Shown here: positions 51,071 through 63,812 of the stretch, piece after piece
Layout: each line of letters begins with the position of its first letter
Numbering within the stretch: the stretch's first letter is position 1
The notes under the pieces: model-generated
Seen by the model: only the letters and a program-made list of their open reading frames with translations
The model's database searches: none
What the model was told of the DNA's origin: nothing
DNA from: Fonticella tunisiensis
Lineage (GTDB): Bacteria > Bacillota > Clostridia > Clostridiales > Caloramatoraceae
Direction: 5' to 3'
DNA: 64,000 nucleotides
Assembly: GCF_004364155.1 (NCBI RefSeq)
Contig: NZ_SOAZ01000008.1
Coordinates: 1-64,000, forward strand
Position numbers and translations under genes: made by a program

Positions 51071-51218
51071 AAGTATCACCCCTGTTTTAAAATCTATAAT
51101 AGAATATGTCTTAGCGATGTGAAATGACACATTCGGGTATTGGCATAAATTTTGTTTTACCATATAAGCAACAGGGTATATAATTTATTTGTAATTTAAC
51201 GTGTACGGGAGGATTAAT

Positions 51219-51776
51219 ATGAAGGCTGAAATACTTTCTGTTGGTACTGAGCTTTTGCTTGGAGAGCATGTTTACGGTATCGATGAAACAACTCTTGAAG
51301 ATGTTGTTGGTAAAATGCTGATAGATTCAGGACTTACAATTTCGACTGCTGAATCCTGTACAGGCGGACTTTTGGCAGGAAGGCTCATAAATTACCCTGG
51401 GATATCTTCAGTTTATCTGGAAGGAGTAATAACATACAGCAACGAGTCCAAAATGAAAAGGCTTAATGTAAAAGAGGAAACACTTAAAAAGTATGGGGCG
51501 GTGAGCAGTAAGACGGCAGCCGAGATGGCAGAAGGCATTGCTAAAGCTGCAGGGACAGACATAGGTATGTCAGTAACGGGAATTGCAGGCCCTTCGGGAG
51601 GAACTGAGGAAAAACCAGTTGGACTTGTGTATCTTGGACTGTATTTAAAGGGTATGGTTAAGACAAAGGAACTTAGGATTGTAGGAGGGGATAGGCAGTA
51701 TATTAGAAACAGAACGGTTGTGCAGGCTCTTGATTGGCTCAGAAGGGAATTGATTGAATATACAGGAAAAAGGTAA
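51219..51776 (+). CDS. cinA: CinA with in-frame internal deletion; retains the PncC-type nicotinamide-nucleotide amidase domain
   Basis: The first 16 residues (MKAEILSVGTELLLGE) are the start of full-length CinA, a protein of about 410 residues. They run directly into HVYGIDETTLEDVVGKML and then the whole C-terminal domain: STAESCTGGLLAGRL, ITYSNESKMKRL, SVTGIAGPSGGT and KPVGLVYLGLY. About 220 residues of the N-terminal COG1058 (ADP-ribose pyrophosphatase-like) domain are missing. The remaining domain should still deamidate NMN to NaMN. GGGAGG lies seven bases before ATG 51219, so the gene is expressible. A terminator follows. Confidence 0.88.
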   Translation: MKAEILSVGTELLLGEHVYGIDETTLEDVVGKMLIDSGLTISTAESCTGGLLAGRLINYPGISSVYLEGVITYSNESKMKRLNVKEETLKKYGAVSSKTAAEMAEGIAKAAGTDIGMSVTGIAGPSGGTEEKPVGLVYLGLYLKGMVKTKELRIVGGDRQYIRNRTVVQALDWLRRELIEYTGKR

Positions 51777-57659: not shown

Positions 57660-58904
57660 TCATAAAATACCAGCCAGCGTTTCATAGGCAAGCTTAATAC
57701 GTTCAAATAGAGCATCAGGAATATCTAATCTTTCAAGTTCAGTTCCCTTTGATGTCAATCTATTTTTTGCCCCCATGAACACTCCACCGAGAAAAGTAGC
57801 ACTGTAGTGCCACTCTCCCCGTATTGTTGCCAACAGGGATAAGCTTCCGGATGAGAGTGCGGGTGCAATATAGGGTTTGTGCCCGGCTTTCCTTATTTCG
57901 AGGTTGGCTTTTTTCGTTTTTTCGGTTAGATAAATAGAAAGCTCATGGTTGTAGTTTCTTATGCTGTCTGCTACTATTAATCCATCTCCGTGGGGCCCAA
58001 ACACTCTGCCTTCATGCAGGAAGTGCTCCAACTCTGGTTCCTTCTGTGCAAAATATGCAGCCCTTGCATTCATAACTCCAAGCCCATAACCTCTTATTTG
58101 ATCAGGTGCAAGCCCCATAAAATCTAACTTACCCGATTTATCGGTGTTGCTGGATAGAAACGCCGACTTGCACAGGAGATCAACTGGATCGGACACAACC
58201 GCGAATATGCCCTTAAATGCATAATTTCTAGCCTTTTTTGCGTAGTAATTTATTATTTTAGAATTTCCTTTAAATTGTGCCATTCTAACATCCATGCCTT
58301 CCTCACCTATAGGGGGAACACCACGGGATACGCAAAATATAAACATGTCACAGTTAAAAATATCGTCTTCATCAATTTTGATCACAGAGGGCATGGGCTC
58401 ACTATGAAATGCTGGCAGTATCTGGCTGACTTCCCTTTCCCAGCGGTTTACTTTGTTGATGTCAATATCATATATACCTATACTTGAAATGCAGTCCCCT
58501 CCAAGAAGTCTGAGACCAGTTATAAGCATTCCACCTACATCTCCGAGGCCTGCAATGTTAACTCTCCATTTATCGGGAAAGGATGTTTTAGTAACATCCT
58601 CCCAGCCAGGATAGTTTTTGTTTAATGCTATTACTTTTCTGAAATTGATTCTTTCTATAATCCATGAAGGAACGTTAACCGCAGATTCCGGTGCAGCTTT
58701 TAAAAGCTCTACCCCCTCTGACTCAATATAAAGTAGGGATGGGTCAGTGATTACAAAACTCCTTCGTGATGTTAATGCATCTAAATCCATTAGAGCATAT
58801 ATATATCCTTCTGAGATTCGGGCTTCATCTTCCGATATTCTATGGAAATCATCGTATTTTTTATTTGAGATAAAAACGTGTTTATTAAAACTATAGTAAT
58901 ACAT
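57660..58904 (-). CDS. Lactate/malate dehydrogenase-like enzyme with extra N-terminal domain
   Basis: The 414-residue protein carries an LDH/MDH-fold core from about residue 114. NIAGLGDVGGMLITGLRLLGG (116-136) is the Rossmann loop, with IYDID as the NAD-selecting acid. SDPVD at 238-242 replaces NPVD, GLGVMNARAAYFA follows, and FGPHGDG (303-309) holds the catalytic histidine. Ordinary LDH/MDH is about 310-330 residues. The first 110 residues here are extra and not recognised. GGAGG overlaps the stop of the giant gene upstream, so translation is coupled. NAD use is likely; the 2-hydroxyacid substrate is unknown. Confidence 0.75.
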   Translation of the reverse strand: MYYYSFNKHVFISNKKYDDFHRISEDEARISEGYIYALMDLDALTSRRSFVITDPSLLYIESEGVELLKAAPESAVNVPSWIIERINFRKVIALNKNYPGWEDVTKTSFPDKWRVNIAGLGDVGGMLITGLRLLGGDCISSIGIYDIDINKVNRWEREVSQILPAFHSEPMPSVIKIDEDDIFNCDMFIFCVSRGVPPIGEEGMDVRMAQFKGNSKIINYYAKKARNYAFKGIFAVVSDPVDLLCKSAFLSSNTDKSGKLDFMGLAPDQIRGYGLGVMNARAAYFAQKEPELEHFLHEGRVFGPHGDGLIVADSIRNYNHELSIYLTEKTKKANLEIRKAGHKPYIAPALSSGSLSLLATIRGEWHYSATFLGGVFMGAKNRLTSKGTELERLDIPDALFERIKLAYETLAGIL

Positions 58905-58913
58905 AACTGCCTC

Positions 58914-61900
58914 CTAATCCTTATTTAACAGATATTCAATTCGGCTTAAAAGCTCAAGATCGTTTTTAAGATAATGTGAAGCATTAAGGTTTAAATCATA
59001 ATTCATGTTGTAACCATGATCAGGACATCTTGGAGACATAAATACCTGGCCTAACAGCCCAAGAGTAAGGCTCCTTTCTTGGATAAATTGATATTCGCTT
59101 TCCAAGGCAGCCATAATATCCAGGGCGTTTTCTATACAAACCTTTGAAAGGTTGAATATTGAACTTGTTGAAGTTCCCTTTATGAAGGTTGGTGATGCAT
59201 ATGGCAGTATGAGGTTTATCGATGGAATAAGATTCCTACGGGGATAATCCCCCTGCCAGACGGTATCCCCTCCCATAAAGGGGTATAGAAGGCTTTCATT
59301 GAACCAAACTTTGAGTTTGGGGATATAGTAGGCGCTATCAACGCTTCTATTTTGAATATCCATAAGTTCTTTTCCCATTCCAGAGAGTATTCCCACTATT
59401 ATTTTTTGGACATTTATACCTTCTTTGTTGAGAAGAGGGTCAAGTGCTCTTATTCTATAGCCTTTATGAAGAATATCATCAACTAAAATAACAGGCCTGT
59501 CAAATGCTTTAAGCATCCTAATCTGATTTTCAAGGCTCAGATAGTTTGGAAAAGGTCCTATGGTATAGCTTTTCAAATCCCTCGAGAAATATTTTTCTGT
59601 GTGAAGAGATTTAGTTATAGTGTTTGGAACTATATTTCTTTTAAGTATGTTTCCAAAGGGAACGCACATTGAGTTGCCAAAGCTTCTGGGACAAAGTGGA
59701 GTTGTAGGGACCCCGTTCTCTCTACATATCTTTTTAATAATGTTTTCATACATCATATTTCTATTAAAGGAAAGCACCAGATTACCGGGGTAAAGCTTTG
59801 TAAGTGCCTCTTGAAGCCTTTTTCTCGATGTTTTAATAACTTTATTTATATTATTATTGCTTCGAAAGGGCTCCTTTATAATTGTTTTTATGTCAAGATT
59901 CAGGGTACAGGGTGAGCTCATATTTACTACATAGAAGGGTGAATCATTGGAATTATATGGTAGTTTTATAAACCCCTGCAGTCTCAGTACATCTTCAATT
60001 TGTCTGGAAGAAAAGTCGAGTATTATGCTTTTATATACTGCGTAATCATAATCTCTGGAAAGGCAGAATGCTAGAGTTTCGGTAAGGAGCATCTGCTCAA
60101 GGTTTTTTATTTTTGTGTTTTTATTTATATACATGCCGCCTATAAGAACTATTCTACCTGCAGCATTTTTTCTTATGTATTCACAAACTAATACATTTTG
60201 AAGCTCGCGATAAAGCTCGCTTATCCTTATCCAATGTATTAGTGAGAAGGCTACTATAGAATTGTTCTCATTTACTGAACGGAGCGCAACAATTCGAGCT
60301 GATGGCTTTTTGGAGAAATTCTTTAATTTTTCATATAAATCATACGGCCTGTTTTCAAGCAGGGAACAGATTTCATCAATGATGCCTTCATTAATGTTAT
60401 TAATGACTTCCACGTCGACAGAAACGGTTTGAATAGGAGATTTATACTGAGGCTCGTGCTGATAATAGCCATTTTCATACATGTACCTCTGTACAAGTGG
60501 ATCTATTAAACTTGAAATATCCATATTCTTATCAATATAATCCCTTATTCGAGTTGAACTTATATCCTCATACTGGGGCGCAAGGGAGAGATAAATAATC
60601 TCTCCATCTATCAGTTTTAATACATCATCAAGCCTGTGTTTCTTACCAGCAGGCTTCATATTTCGCTTAAATATTATATGTGAAAAGGAATGTATAGAAT
60701 TTTCACTTTTGCTCTTCTTGTAGGCAGATGCGTTTAAAAGAACGTCGCTTCCTACCACTATATAAATTTCAGAACAGGGAAATGCATTTCTTAAAGTCGA
60801 CAAATTATCGTTGTTTGAAATATTAATCTGAACATCCTCTGGAAAAAGGTAAACTTCAAGTTCATCTGCAATGGACATACTAATTATATTTCTTCTAATC
60901 ATATGGGGCCTTGTTTGCTTTGACCAGGAAAACTCATCAACTGCAAGGAAAACTTCAAATCCAAGATCTTTTATGGCCTTTACTATTTCCTTATGGCTTA
61001 AGGAAAAGGGATCAAAGGTTCCAGGAAAAAAGGCAACCTTGTCAGGATGTTGTAACTCGATTTTTCCCCGGATGCATGTATATTCTGAAATAAATCTGTA
61101 TATATGGTTAAGAGAAGCAGCTTTAGTAAGAAAGAGCAGCTCTTCATCAGAATCGTCAACTATGAGGGTAAGGAGCTTTTTAGAGATCAATTTGAATATG
61201 TTGTATTTTTGTTCTAAACCCAACCATCTGGAACAGAATATATCCTTGCCAATTACTCTGTATGCCATCTGTTTAACCTGAACATTGTAGTTTACAAGAC
61301 CGTTTAAAAGTATCCCCAGCATTTTAATCAGCCTGTTTTTAAAATTCTTTTCATCTTCATTAAACATATATCTATATTTTGGGTAGTTAGCTATTACTAT
61401 TCCGATTGTCTTTAAAATAAGGGATTTAACTCTGGGTTCAGACTGCTTTATTTTACCGATTAAATCATCTGTTACCTCATCTAATTCAATGGGCTTTAAG
61501 AAAAGCAGGATCTGTCCAAGGGAATAAGGAATAAATTCAGCAAATCTAAGACCTTCTATTTCTAGGGCTCTTAGAAGTTCAATTGCAACGTCGTTTCTCT
61601 GCTCTGGTGAAAGATGCGGAATAATCCTGACAAGGGCGTCACCGGCAAAGTTTCTAACGCTTTCAACTGCACTAACCTTTAGAAGATTGCAGTAGTGTAG
61701 TGCAGTATAAAATGCATTTTCCTTTGGATGCTTCAAGGAATGGTCAAGCAAAAGCTCAACCTGTATCTTTTTAATTATCCAATCCGTTGCTGTTTTTAGG
61801 TTGCTCAAGTATATATCAGGTATTTTCTTTAAATCACGTTTACAGAAATCTGAAAATCTTTTTTTTATGGCATCGTCCAAATCCAACTGATTTGCGATTT

Positions 61901-63812
61901 TTTCCTTAAGAAAATTCTCAGCAGGTATTTTGGAATAGTTAACTTTATGTGTAAGCTTTGTCTTGAGGTTTATAATAAAAATAAAATCGCTGCTCAGTCT
62001 ATACAATAAACTTCTAGAAACATCAAGTGCAGCAATTCTTAAAATGGAATTTTTAGAATCAAGCATATCCAGTATATAATTGAAAATTACGAGTGAATCC
62101 TTGTTTTCTGAAAACGGTATATATTTTGCAGCATAAAGTAAGGTGAGTTTATTGTCATTTGTGCTGTATTTTTCTTTATCATAATATTTAAATATAACGT
62201 CGCAATAAGCGTCAATAAGATTACTTTTGGCATTATTAAATAGTGAAGAAATCATAATTGGCAGAGTGTATACTATCCATTTTCTATGCTCCAGCAAAAT
62301 CTTATGGTCAGGGAACAGGAATAACCCTAAGTATTTATTCAAAAGATCAACACTTGTAAATTTAGGAGATCCAAGTTTTGCACTTGAAGGCAGCTCTTTC
62401 CTATAATCTTCATCAAATTCAGCTATTAGAACACCGATAAGCTCAGCAGACTTTTTTCGAATATCCTCCTCAGGGTGAGTGAGTTCCTCGTATAAAAAAT
62501 TTAGTGTGATAAGCTTTTGCTTTTGAGTTAAATATGTCGAATACTCTTCAAATATTTGAAGATATTGGCGGAGATTTTTCCAGTCATTTTCACTTCTTGC
62601 AAGATCAAGGATGAAATTAAGGGATGATTCTGTTCTCAGTTTGTACATAAGTTTTATATTATTTTCTATTGAAACATATTTGAGATTTTCTACAACTTCC
62701 TGGCCGTGCATAAGTGGATAGCTAAACTTTTTCCGGATTTTTAAAGCTTCGTTGTCAACCCTATCTGAAAAATCTGTGTTAACTTCTATTCCAATATTAA
62801 TCATAAAACTTTCAAAATCTTCAAGCTTAGAATATACTCGCTTATATCTGTTAAGCTTCATGTCATCAACGTTATCGAGCTTATCAAGTATTACGTTAAA
62901 TGCGTCCTTTAAAGTGAGAAAATGCATGGTGTCCTTTCCGTTCTTGTCCTTCAGGTTTTTAACCCTGAAATCGGAATAAATGAGTATTAGGGATTCCAGA
63001 GGAAGATTTTCCAGTTCAAGATCCCAGGTTGAGTGGTTCAAAGCTATGTTTCTTATGTAGAGTATATCATGCCTTGTAAACCATAAATCAGTATAATAAT
63101 AATGAAGATAGGGTACTCGCTTTATTTCTGAACCCGTACATCCATATTTACCTATATCATGGCCTGCAGAGGCTCCGGATACTCTGCCAAGGTCTATCGG
63201 AAGGCCCAAAGACTGAAACTGTCTGGCTAAAAACATGGCAAGGTAGTGTACACCGCAAATATGATCCAGGGTGTTATATCCTAAAAGCTCCTGATTCAAT
63301 TTCATCATTTCATAAATATATTCTTCATCGAATGAGTTTAGAAATTTTAAGTATTCATCTGGATTTTCAAGGGAATTAATCTCTTCCTGGGATAGAAAAT
63401 AAAGAGGATACTTGCTCTGCCATGTTCCGTCATTTGAATGCTTTTGAATTTGGGATGCTATTTTAAGCACCTTTAAATATATTTCATATGATTGTGCATC
63501 TATTGACGTATATACTAACGTTGAAGCGTGGGGAAAGGATTTACTAAGTGCATACTGGTATACATTCATAAGCCACTCCATATTATTTTGAACAGGAGCT
63601 ATTAGGTCAATCAAGTTTTTAATTAGAATTAAAGTGGAAAAACAGCTAAAATCCTTTTTTTCGACCATCGACCTAATATGGCTTTTTACCTCTTCACTGT
63701 ATAGGAATTCTTTCAGCATTTCCTTGCTGAGCAGATGTCTATTTATAAATTCATTGTTCAGTAGTTCATATAACAAATTGTCATAGAGTTCTTTTTCAAG
63801 CTGGCCATTCAT
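58914..63812 (-). CDS. Giant multidomain protein: HD / helical repeats / NMNAT-like / GNAT-like / phosphoribosyltransferase-like
   Basis: The 1632-residue protein combines several enzyme-like domains. Residues about 175-300 are an HD phosphohydrolase (H184 or H189, H218-D219 in AGHDIGK, D281). Residues about 380-915 look like helical HEAT/ARM-type repeats. Residues 925-1117 are a NadD-type nucleotidyltransferase (AFFPGTFDPFSLSH at 927-940, ISSTRIRDYI at 1084-1093). About 1130-1300 is GNAT-like. About 1340-1510 is phosphoribosyltransferase-like, with the PRPP loop PVILVDDILHKGYR. There is no signal peptide or membrane helix. GGGGG precedes the ATG. It is co-transcribed with the LDH-like gene. 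The whole architecture suggests nucleotide or NAD-related metabolism, but no function is known to me. Confidence 0.8.
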   Translation of the reverse strand: MNGQLEKELYDNLLYELLNNEFINRHLLSKEMLKEFLYSEEVKSHIRSMVEKKDFSCFSTLILIKNLIDLIAPVQNNMEWLMNVYQYALSKSFPHASTLVYTSIDAQSYEIYLKVLKIASQIQKHSNDGTWQSKYPLYFLSQEEINSLENPDEYLKFLNSFDEEYIYEMMKLNQELLGYNTLDHICGVHYLAMFLARQFQSLGLPIDLGRVSGASAGHDIGKYGCTGSEIKRVPYLHYYYTDLWFTRHDILYIRNIALNHSTWDLELENLPLESLILIYSDFRVKNLKDKNGKDTMHFLTLKDAFNVILDKLDNVDDMKLNRYKRVYSKLEDFESFMINIGIEVNTDFSDRVDNEALKIRKKFSYPLMHGQEVVENLKYVSIENNIKLMYKLRTESSLNFILDLARSENDWKNLRQYLQIFEEYSTYLTQKQKLITLNFLYEELTHPEEDIRKKSAELIGVLIAEFDEDYRKELPSSAKLGSPKFTSVDLLNKYLGLFLFPDHKILLEHRKWIVYTLPIMISSLFNNAKSNLIDAYCDVIFKYYDKEKYSTNDNKLTLLYAAKYIPFSENKDSLVIFNYILDMLDSKNSILRIAALDVSRSLLYRLSSDFIFIINLKTKLTHKVNYSKIPAENFLKEKIANQLDLDDAIKKRFSDFCKRDLKKIPDIYLSNLKTATDWIIKKIQVELLLDHSLKHPKENAFYTALHYCNLLKVSAVESVRNFAGDALVRIIPHLSPEQRNDVAIELLRALEIEGLRFAEFIPYSLGQILLFLKPIELDEVTDDLIGKIKQSEPRVKSLILKTIGIVIANYPKYRYMFNEDEKNFKNRLIKMLGILLNGLVNYNVQVKQMAYRVIGKDIFCSRWLGLEQKYNIFKLISKKLLTLIVDDSDEELLFLTKAASLNHIYRFISEYTCIRGKIELQHPDKVAFFPGTFDPFSLSHKEIVKAIKDLGFEVFLAVDEFSWSKQTRPHMIRRNIISMSIADELEVYLFPEDVQINISNNDNLSTLRNAFPCSEIYIVVGSDVLLNASAYKKSKSENSIHSFSHIIFKRNMKPAGKKHRLDDVLKLIDGEIIYLSLAPQYEDISSTRIRDYIDKNMDISSLIDPLVQRYMYENGYYQHEPQYKSPIQTVSVDVEVINNINEGIIDEICSLLENRPYDLYEKLKNFSKKPSARIVALRSVNENNSIVAFSLIHWIRISELYRELQNVLVCEYIRKNAAGRIVLIGGMYINKNTKIKNLEQMLLTETLAFCLSRDYDYAVYKSIILDFSSRQIEDVLRLQGFIKLPYNSNDSPFYVVNMSSPCTLNLDIKTIIKEPFRSNNNINKVIKTSRKRLQEALTKLYPGNLVLSFNRNMMYENIIKKICRENGVPTTPLCPRSFGNSMCVPFGNILKRNIVPNTITKSLHTEKYFSRDLKSYTIGPFPNYLSLENQIRMLKAFDRPVILVDDILHKGYRIRALDPLLNKEGINVQKIIVGILSGMGKELMDIQNRSVDSAYYIPKLKVWFNESLLYPFMGGDTVWQGDYPRRNLIPSINLILPYASPTFIKGTSTSSIFNLSKVCIENALDIMAALESEYQFIQERSLTLGLLGQVFMSPRCPDHGYNMNYDLNLNASHYLKNDLELLSRIEYLLNKD

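Follow-up and report, generated by a model that had tools for sequence, protein, structure and literature searches.

A conserved five-module protein of about 1600 residues and its dehydrogenase-like partner in Clostridia and Atribacterota

The window that we analyzed, the first 64,000 nucleotides of contig NZ_SOAZ01000008.1 of Fonticella tunisiensis, encodes a single chain of 1632 residues (gene A, 58914..63812 (-), whole reading frame including the stop codon), in which an HD hydrolase, helical HEAT repeats, a NadD-like nucleotidyltransferase domain, a GNAT-fold domain and a phosphoribosyltransferase (PRT)-like domain follow one another. An assembly of this size, strictly co-inherited with the same dehydrogenase-like partner (gene B), points to a metabolic pathway not described in the open-license literature that we searched. 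The module order had been proposed in a sequence-only reading, and profiles and structure models agreed with it: when the chain was split, profile search and structure prediction gave folds consistent with those named and placed no segment in an unrelated one. The boundaries that we found (about residue 345, 917, 1125, and about 1313) lie close to the 330, 920, 1125 and 1330 of that reading, and the protein does contain the three motifs that it named (HD, SSTRIR and VDDILHKG), the HKG of the last being H-K-G, N-K-G or S-K-G in relatives. Its claim that no characterized protein has this layout also stood, in that a full-text search of the open-license literature yielded neither a characterized ortholog nor a description of the five-module arrangement. 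The gene A family may carry a database name without a described function.

Gene A has an ATG start preceded by a purine-rich, RBS-like site (AAGGGGGAT), and its frame is open. Full-length relatives of about 1600 aa, 40–60% identical, occur in Clostridia and Atribacterota, and the chain, approximately 1570–1690 aa across the family, is nearly always full-length, apart from copies cut off by contig ends, some that are broken and a few whose open frame is interrupted. Alignment of 25 full-length relatives gave 1666 columns with a mean column identity of 61%, and relatives of the C-terminal half are encoded by at least 576 stretches of species genomes; judged from this alignment and this wide spread, gene A is evidently under selection. 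A chimeric assembly or gene-calling artifact was rejected in view of the approximately 100 full-length relatives, and within the sample we found no separate family carrying the modules in pieces. Two copies (G063:C1:2256134-2260957 and G016:C1:2564897-2569713) contain several stops and frame changes, and are apparent pseudogenes or reflect sequencing errors.

Within a sample of the class Clostridia, gene A was carried by 31 of 391 genomes, called positive by a clear gap between best matches per genome above 600 bits and ordinary NadD matches below 44 bits. The matches listed included relatives in Caloramator, Thermobrachium, Fervidicella, Alkaliphilus, Tepidibacter, Geosporobacter, several Clostridium species and Atribacterota. 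The Atribacterota copies formed a single clade within Clostridia in the tree, consistent with one transfer of the gene, and the C-terminal half is more than 50% identical between the two groups. One further copy, from a record titled Calditrichales bacterium MX18-03 (L044, JAJGRE010000003.1), was placed deep within Clostridia, and this genome is possibly mislabeled or mixed. A phage or plasmid origin was rejected: no phage or viral contig matched, and the one match on a plasmid-filed record lies on Acetoanaerobium noterae pTPELB2 (L168, NZ_CP154629.1:2028049-2046145), whose 2.6-Mb size suggests that it is a chromosome. A role in anti-phage defense was likewise set aside, as PADLOC gave no clear match for gene A, gene B or the third gene described below (gene C), with a weak ShosT match to gene A (E 0.009), and RNA-controlled expression was rejected on finding no Rfam match across 19 loci.

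Examination of the neighborhoods of homologs, which had been suggested together with the sequence-only reading, revealed partners that the reading itself had overlooked: gene B without exception, gene C in almost all cases, and, in part of the genomes, a kinase. Gene B encodes a 414-aa lactate/malate-dehydrogenase-like protein (57660..58904 (-)), 9 bp downstream of gene A and on the same strand; zwf is the next gene past it, on the opposite strand. Like L-lactate/malate dehydrogenases, gene B has a Rossmann domain and retains the active-site His and two Arg of the LDH type (R207, R281 and H305), but the position of the Asp of the His-Asp pair is not conserved in its alignment, DP replaces NP, about 110 aa are added at the N-terminus, and its scores fall far under the equivalog cut-offs. 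Gene C encodes a flavoprotein of the FMN_red family (FMN-reductase-like), with an extra N-terminal region and a Cys-rich stretch; it was not found in the F. tunisiensis genome. Of 79 loci with an anchor gene, 75 had B and 70 had C, several of the absences falling at contig ends, and most loci had the operon order A-B-C, with gene ends that often overlap or almost touch. In the Clostridia sample, gene B was found in exactly the 31 A-positive genomes and gene C in 29 of 391, all of them A-positive (p ~8e-42, ignoring shared ancestry). Because the sampled genomes are related, such co-occurrence p-values are too small; the link of B and C to A holds over 21–22 genera.

The N-terminal half of the protein was modeled as residues 1-916 (pLDDT 87.3), with an almost all-helical HD region followed by a long HEAT solenoid. 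Helical residues 1-140 precede the HD metal-dependent hydrolase domain (approximately residues 140-345, 62778..63395 (-)), which is recognized by profile and by its ligands: Pfam PF01966 matched 36 of 45 relatives (best E 6e-5), and H184, H218, D219, H237, H260 and D281 were invariant in 103 sequences. These six comprise the H...HD...D ligand set of the HD superfamily (H184, H218, D219, D281) and, between HD and D, the His pair of the dinuclear subset (H237 and H260). An H...HD...H...H...D set is diagnostic of dinuclear HD enzymes, of which YqeK is an example (review, PMC8177086), and by this ligand set the gene A site is predicted to be of the dinuclear type. Membership in the YqeK family was rejected: the motif order agrees but the profiles disagree, TIGR00488 (YqeK) matching none of the 45 relatives and an alignment to the YqeK profile reaching only P 0.019, while HD proteins of the same genome other than YqeK aligned better with the gene A domain. 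NF045665, the DVU_1551-family NTP transferase model, also matched the HD region (43 of 45 relatives, with a best E of 9e-5) and has no other module in common with gene A. Judging by the family name, its members would combine an HD region with a nucleotidyltransferase, the latter presumably MobA-like rather than NadD-like. The HEAT solenoid itself (approximately residues 371-915, 61068..62702 (-)) is supported by the model and by structure-search hits to HEAT proteins that span model residues 387-914. In the Foldseek results the HEAT repeats took up the list for this half and the NadD domain that for the other, and the HD and PRT-like folds were assigned on other evidence.

The C-terminal half (residues 917-1632) also gave a confident model (pLDDT 84.5). 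Its NadD-like domain (residues 917-1124, 60441..61064 (-)) contains GTFDPFSLSH, GSD and ISSTRIR, matched Pfam PF01467 (E 1e-8), and superposed over model residues 8-202 on NadD of M. tuberculosis (VIA Z 17.5, rmsd 2.7, 185 aligned). The fold and the SSTxIR motif are those of NadD (TIGR00482), and NadD models ranked first among NCBIfam profiles, at a TIGR00482 score of 42.5 bits that is far below the cut-off of 112.45. Across 103 sequences the motifs read G-T-F-D-P-F-[ST]-x-[SG]-H, GSD and SSxxIR, and the final His, the two Ser and the Arg never vary; the main lineage keeps those of adenylyl transfer, GTFDP...H and SSxxIR, with little or no variation. Unlike the (H/T)xGH of NadD, gene A has SxSH or TxGH for HxGH (first position S in 82/103 and T in 21/103, third position S in 76/103 and G in 26/103), embedded in a 1600-aa chain, and the residues on the nicotinate side differ (GSDVLLNASAY, versus GYDTLRDMDSW in the genome's own NadD). 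An ordinary nadD with yqeK after it lies apart from gene A on the same contig, beyond the window (G000:C8:115762-116932), and for this reason we rejected the identification of gene A as the housekeeping NadD.

The two remaining modules depart from the canonical motifs. The GNAT-fold domain (approximately residues 1128-1300, 59913..60431 (-)) matched SbzI and polyamine N-acetyltransferases (8zt3, 4fd6, 5k9n) with Z ~14 over model residues 212-384, and the Gly-rich CoA-binding loop (R/Q)xxGx(G/A) was absent in 105 of 109 sequences of the domain and present in 4. The PRT-like domain (approximately residues 1313-1497, 59322..59876 (-)) contains VPNTxTKxxHTEK and ILVDDxLHKGYR. Its assignment, based on weak profile matches and a consistent topology, is a putative one: PF00156 matched 36 of 45 relatives (best E 2e-4), the window's own copy scoring 12.8 bits against a family cut-off of 26.3, and the model shows the strand-helix order of type I phosphoribosyltransferases, with ILVDD ending the expected strand. 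D1445, G1451 and R1453 were invariant in 103 sequences, and the second acidic residue is D, N or T, followed by K-G-Y-R where PRPP enzymes have T-G-G-T. The chain ends in a conserved extension recognized from the alignment, YPFxGGD ... PRxPDxG (approximately residues 1498-1632, 58917..59321 (-)).

Paralogs of gene A provide a further view of the modules. An APH/choline-kinase-like gene (Pfam APH E 8e-19) adjoins gene A paralogs in two separately placed groups, and is not near gene A in the main lineage, where the neighborhoods of the kinase were varied and no further partner was found. Of the 391 genomes, 7 had it, every one of them A-positive (p ~1e-8, ignoring shared ancestry); in an order-level sample it also occurred in 7 genomes, of which 6 were A-positive, four of those belonging to one genus. 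In three paralogs adjoining the kinase (L142:7830-12722, L143:6197-11110, L144:5381-10093) the NadD motifs erode stepwise, SSxxIR first, then GTFDP and GSD, so that the ISSTxIR of gene A disappears. The HD ligands of these paralogs and their PRT-like residues (NTxTKxxHxEK, DD, KG and R) are unchanged. Adenylyl transfer would therefore not be needed in every version of gene A, and the modules would not be locked to one reaction chain; the pair of HD and PRT-like domains looks like the functional core. Some versions perhaps skip adenylyl transfer since the kinase-linked route differs. In Marinisporobacter, the kinase overlaps the start of a gene A paralog (L046:6385-15467, with a matching stretch of L110), and the locus continues with an EamA transporter and a pair of radical SAM-SPASM genes on the opposite strand.

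We tentatively favor, as a plausible reading somewhat short of probable, that gene A forms the scaffolded center of a small-molecule pathway in which adenylylation and HD editing or recycling are combined with redox steps catalyzed by B and C. Our observations cover the modules, the conservation of their active-site residues, the A-B-C operon, the strict co-inheritance and the tie to the kinase, whereas we infer every chemical step, the order of the steps and the substrate. The NadD-like domain would move AMP from ATP onto a 5'- or otherwise phosphorylated small molecule, which need not be nicotinate mononucleotide, to form a product of the dinucleotide type. The phosphorylated monomer may be supplied or held by the PRT-like domain, which would handle a phosphoribosyl or phosphate group; where the separate APH-type kinase occurs, that enzyme may do so instead. 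The dinuclear HD domain would hydrolyze the wrong or spent product. This editing role is proposed by analogy because there is a direct precedent: in NadD-YqeK fusions, the HD half destroys mis-made NadD products and NaAD analogs (PMC9426524). Such a fusion, known from mycoplasmas (JCVISYN3A_0380; PMC9426524), resembles gene A in that an adenylyltransferase of the NadD type shares its chain with an HD hydrolase of the dinuclear type, but has only these two domains, an HD domain of another subfamily, and neither HEAT, GNAT and PRT-like modules nor B and C partners. The HEAT solenoid would hold the modules, and probably B and C as well, with B performing an NAD-dependent and C a flavin-dependent redox step on the metabolite. 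Against this scaffolded-pathway reading we count the different nicotinate-side residues, the decay in L142-L144, the KGYR loop and the GNAT domain without a CoA loop. The sequence-only reading had gone further, proposing that all modules serve one nucleotide-derived molecule; its domain assignments hold, and its common substrate is weakened by the missing CoA and T-G loops and by the paralog lineage that loses the NadD-like site and shows no change in the HD and PRT-like sites. It is quite unlikely, in our estimate, that the three proteins A, B and C, together with the accessory kinase, both make and use a new NAD-like dinucleotide, serving as a cofactor or signal in these anaerobic Clostridia and Atribacterota, with A building it by adenylyl transfer and removing it through the HD domain, B as its dedicated dehydrogenase and C as its flavin reductase. 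If the product were such a dinucleotide, it would join a very small list of cofactors of this kind.

Other explanations account for parts of these observations. The protein could be a sensor or regulator, in which the HEAT, PRT-like, GNAT-like and NadD-like parts bind nucleotides without turnover and the HD domain, the sole enzyme, gives an output that controls B and C. The missing CoA loop, the non-canonical PRT-like loop with its variable acidic residue (D/N/T), the loss of the NadD site in one lineage and never of the HD site, and the protein-binding scaffolds formed by HEAT repeats in known proteins are consistent with this; however, the NadD-like catalytic motifs are kept throughout the main lineage, and the invariance of D1445, G1451 and R1453 exceeds the usual need of simple ligand binding, leaving this possibility on the unlikely side. 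Metabolite repair would instead have A, B and C recognize damaged or mis-made pyridine or adenine dinucleotides, which the HD domain would cut and the NadD-like domain, with B and C, would rebuild and re-reduce. YqeK fused to NadD proofreads NaAD analogs (PMC9426524), the gene A HD domain has the same six-ligand dinuclear type, and two redox partners are co-inherited with it. The HD domain nevertheless falls outside the YqeK family by profile (TIGR00488, 0/45), other HD proteins of the genome aligning better, the genome already has nadD-yqeK, and a patchy spread over 31 of 391 Clostridia is ill-suited to a general repair need, making repair unlikely.

It is conceivable that the pathway serves the activation of a phosphorylated alcohol with a logic like that of LicA-LicC and choline phosphate, the kinase making the phosphate and gene A activating and trimming it. 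The association of the kinase with paralogs in two separately placed groups, and the nearby EamA transporter in Marinisporobacter, would fit. However, the kinase is present in only 7 of the 31 A-positive genomes and away from gene A in the main lineage, and the versions that it adjoins are those with a decaying NadD-like site, so that we regard this explanation as very unlikely.

Elsewhere in the window, a CinA-like protein of only 191 aa, recognized by eye (51201-51776 (+)), begins with the residues usual for such proteins, MKAEILSVGTELLLGE, but these lead almost straight to the amidase domain of the C-terminus, which looks as though the N-terminal domain had been largely deleted.
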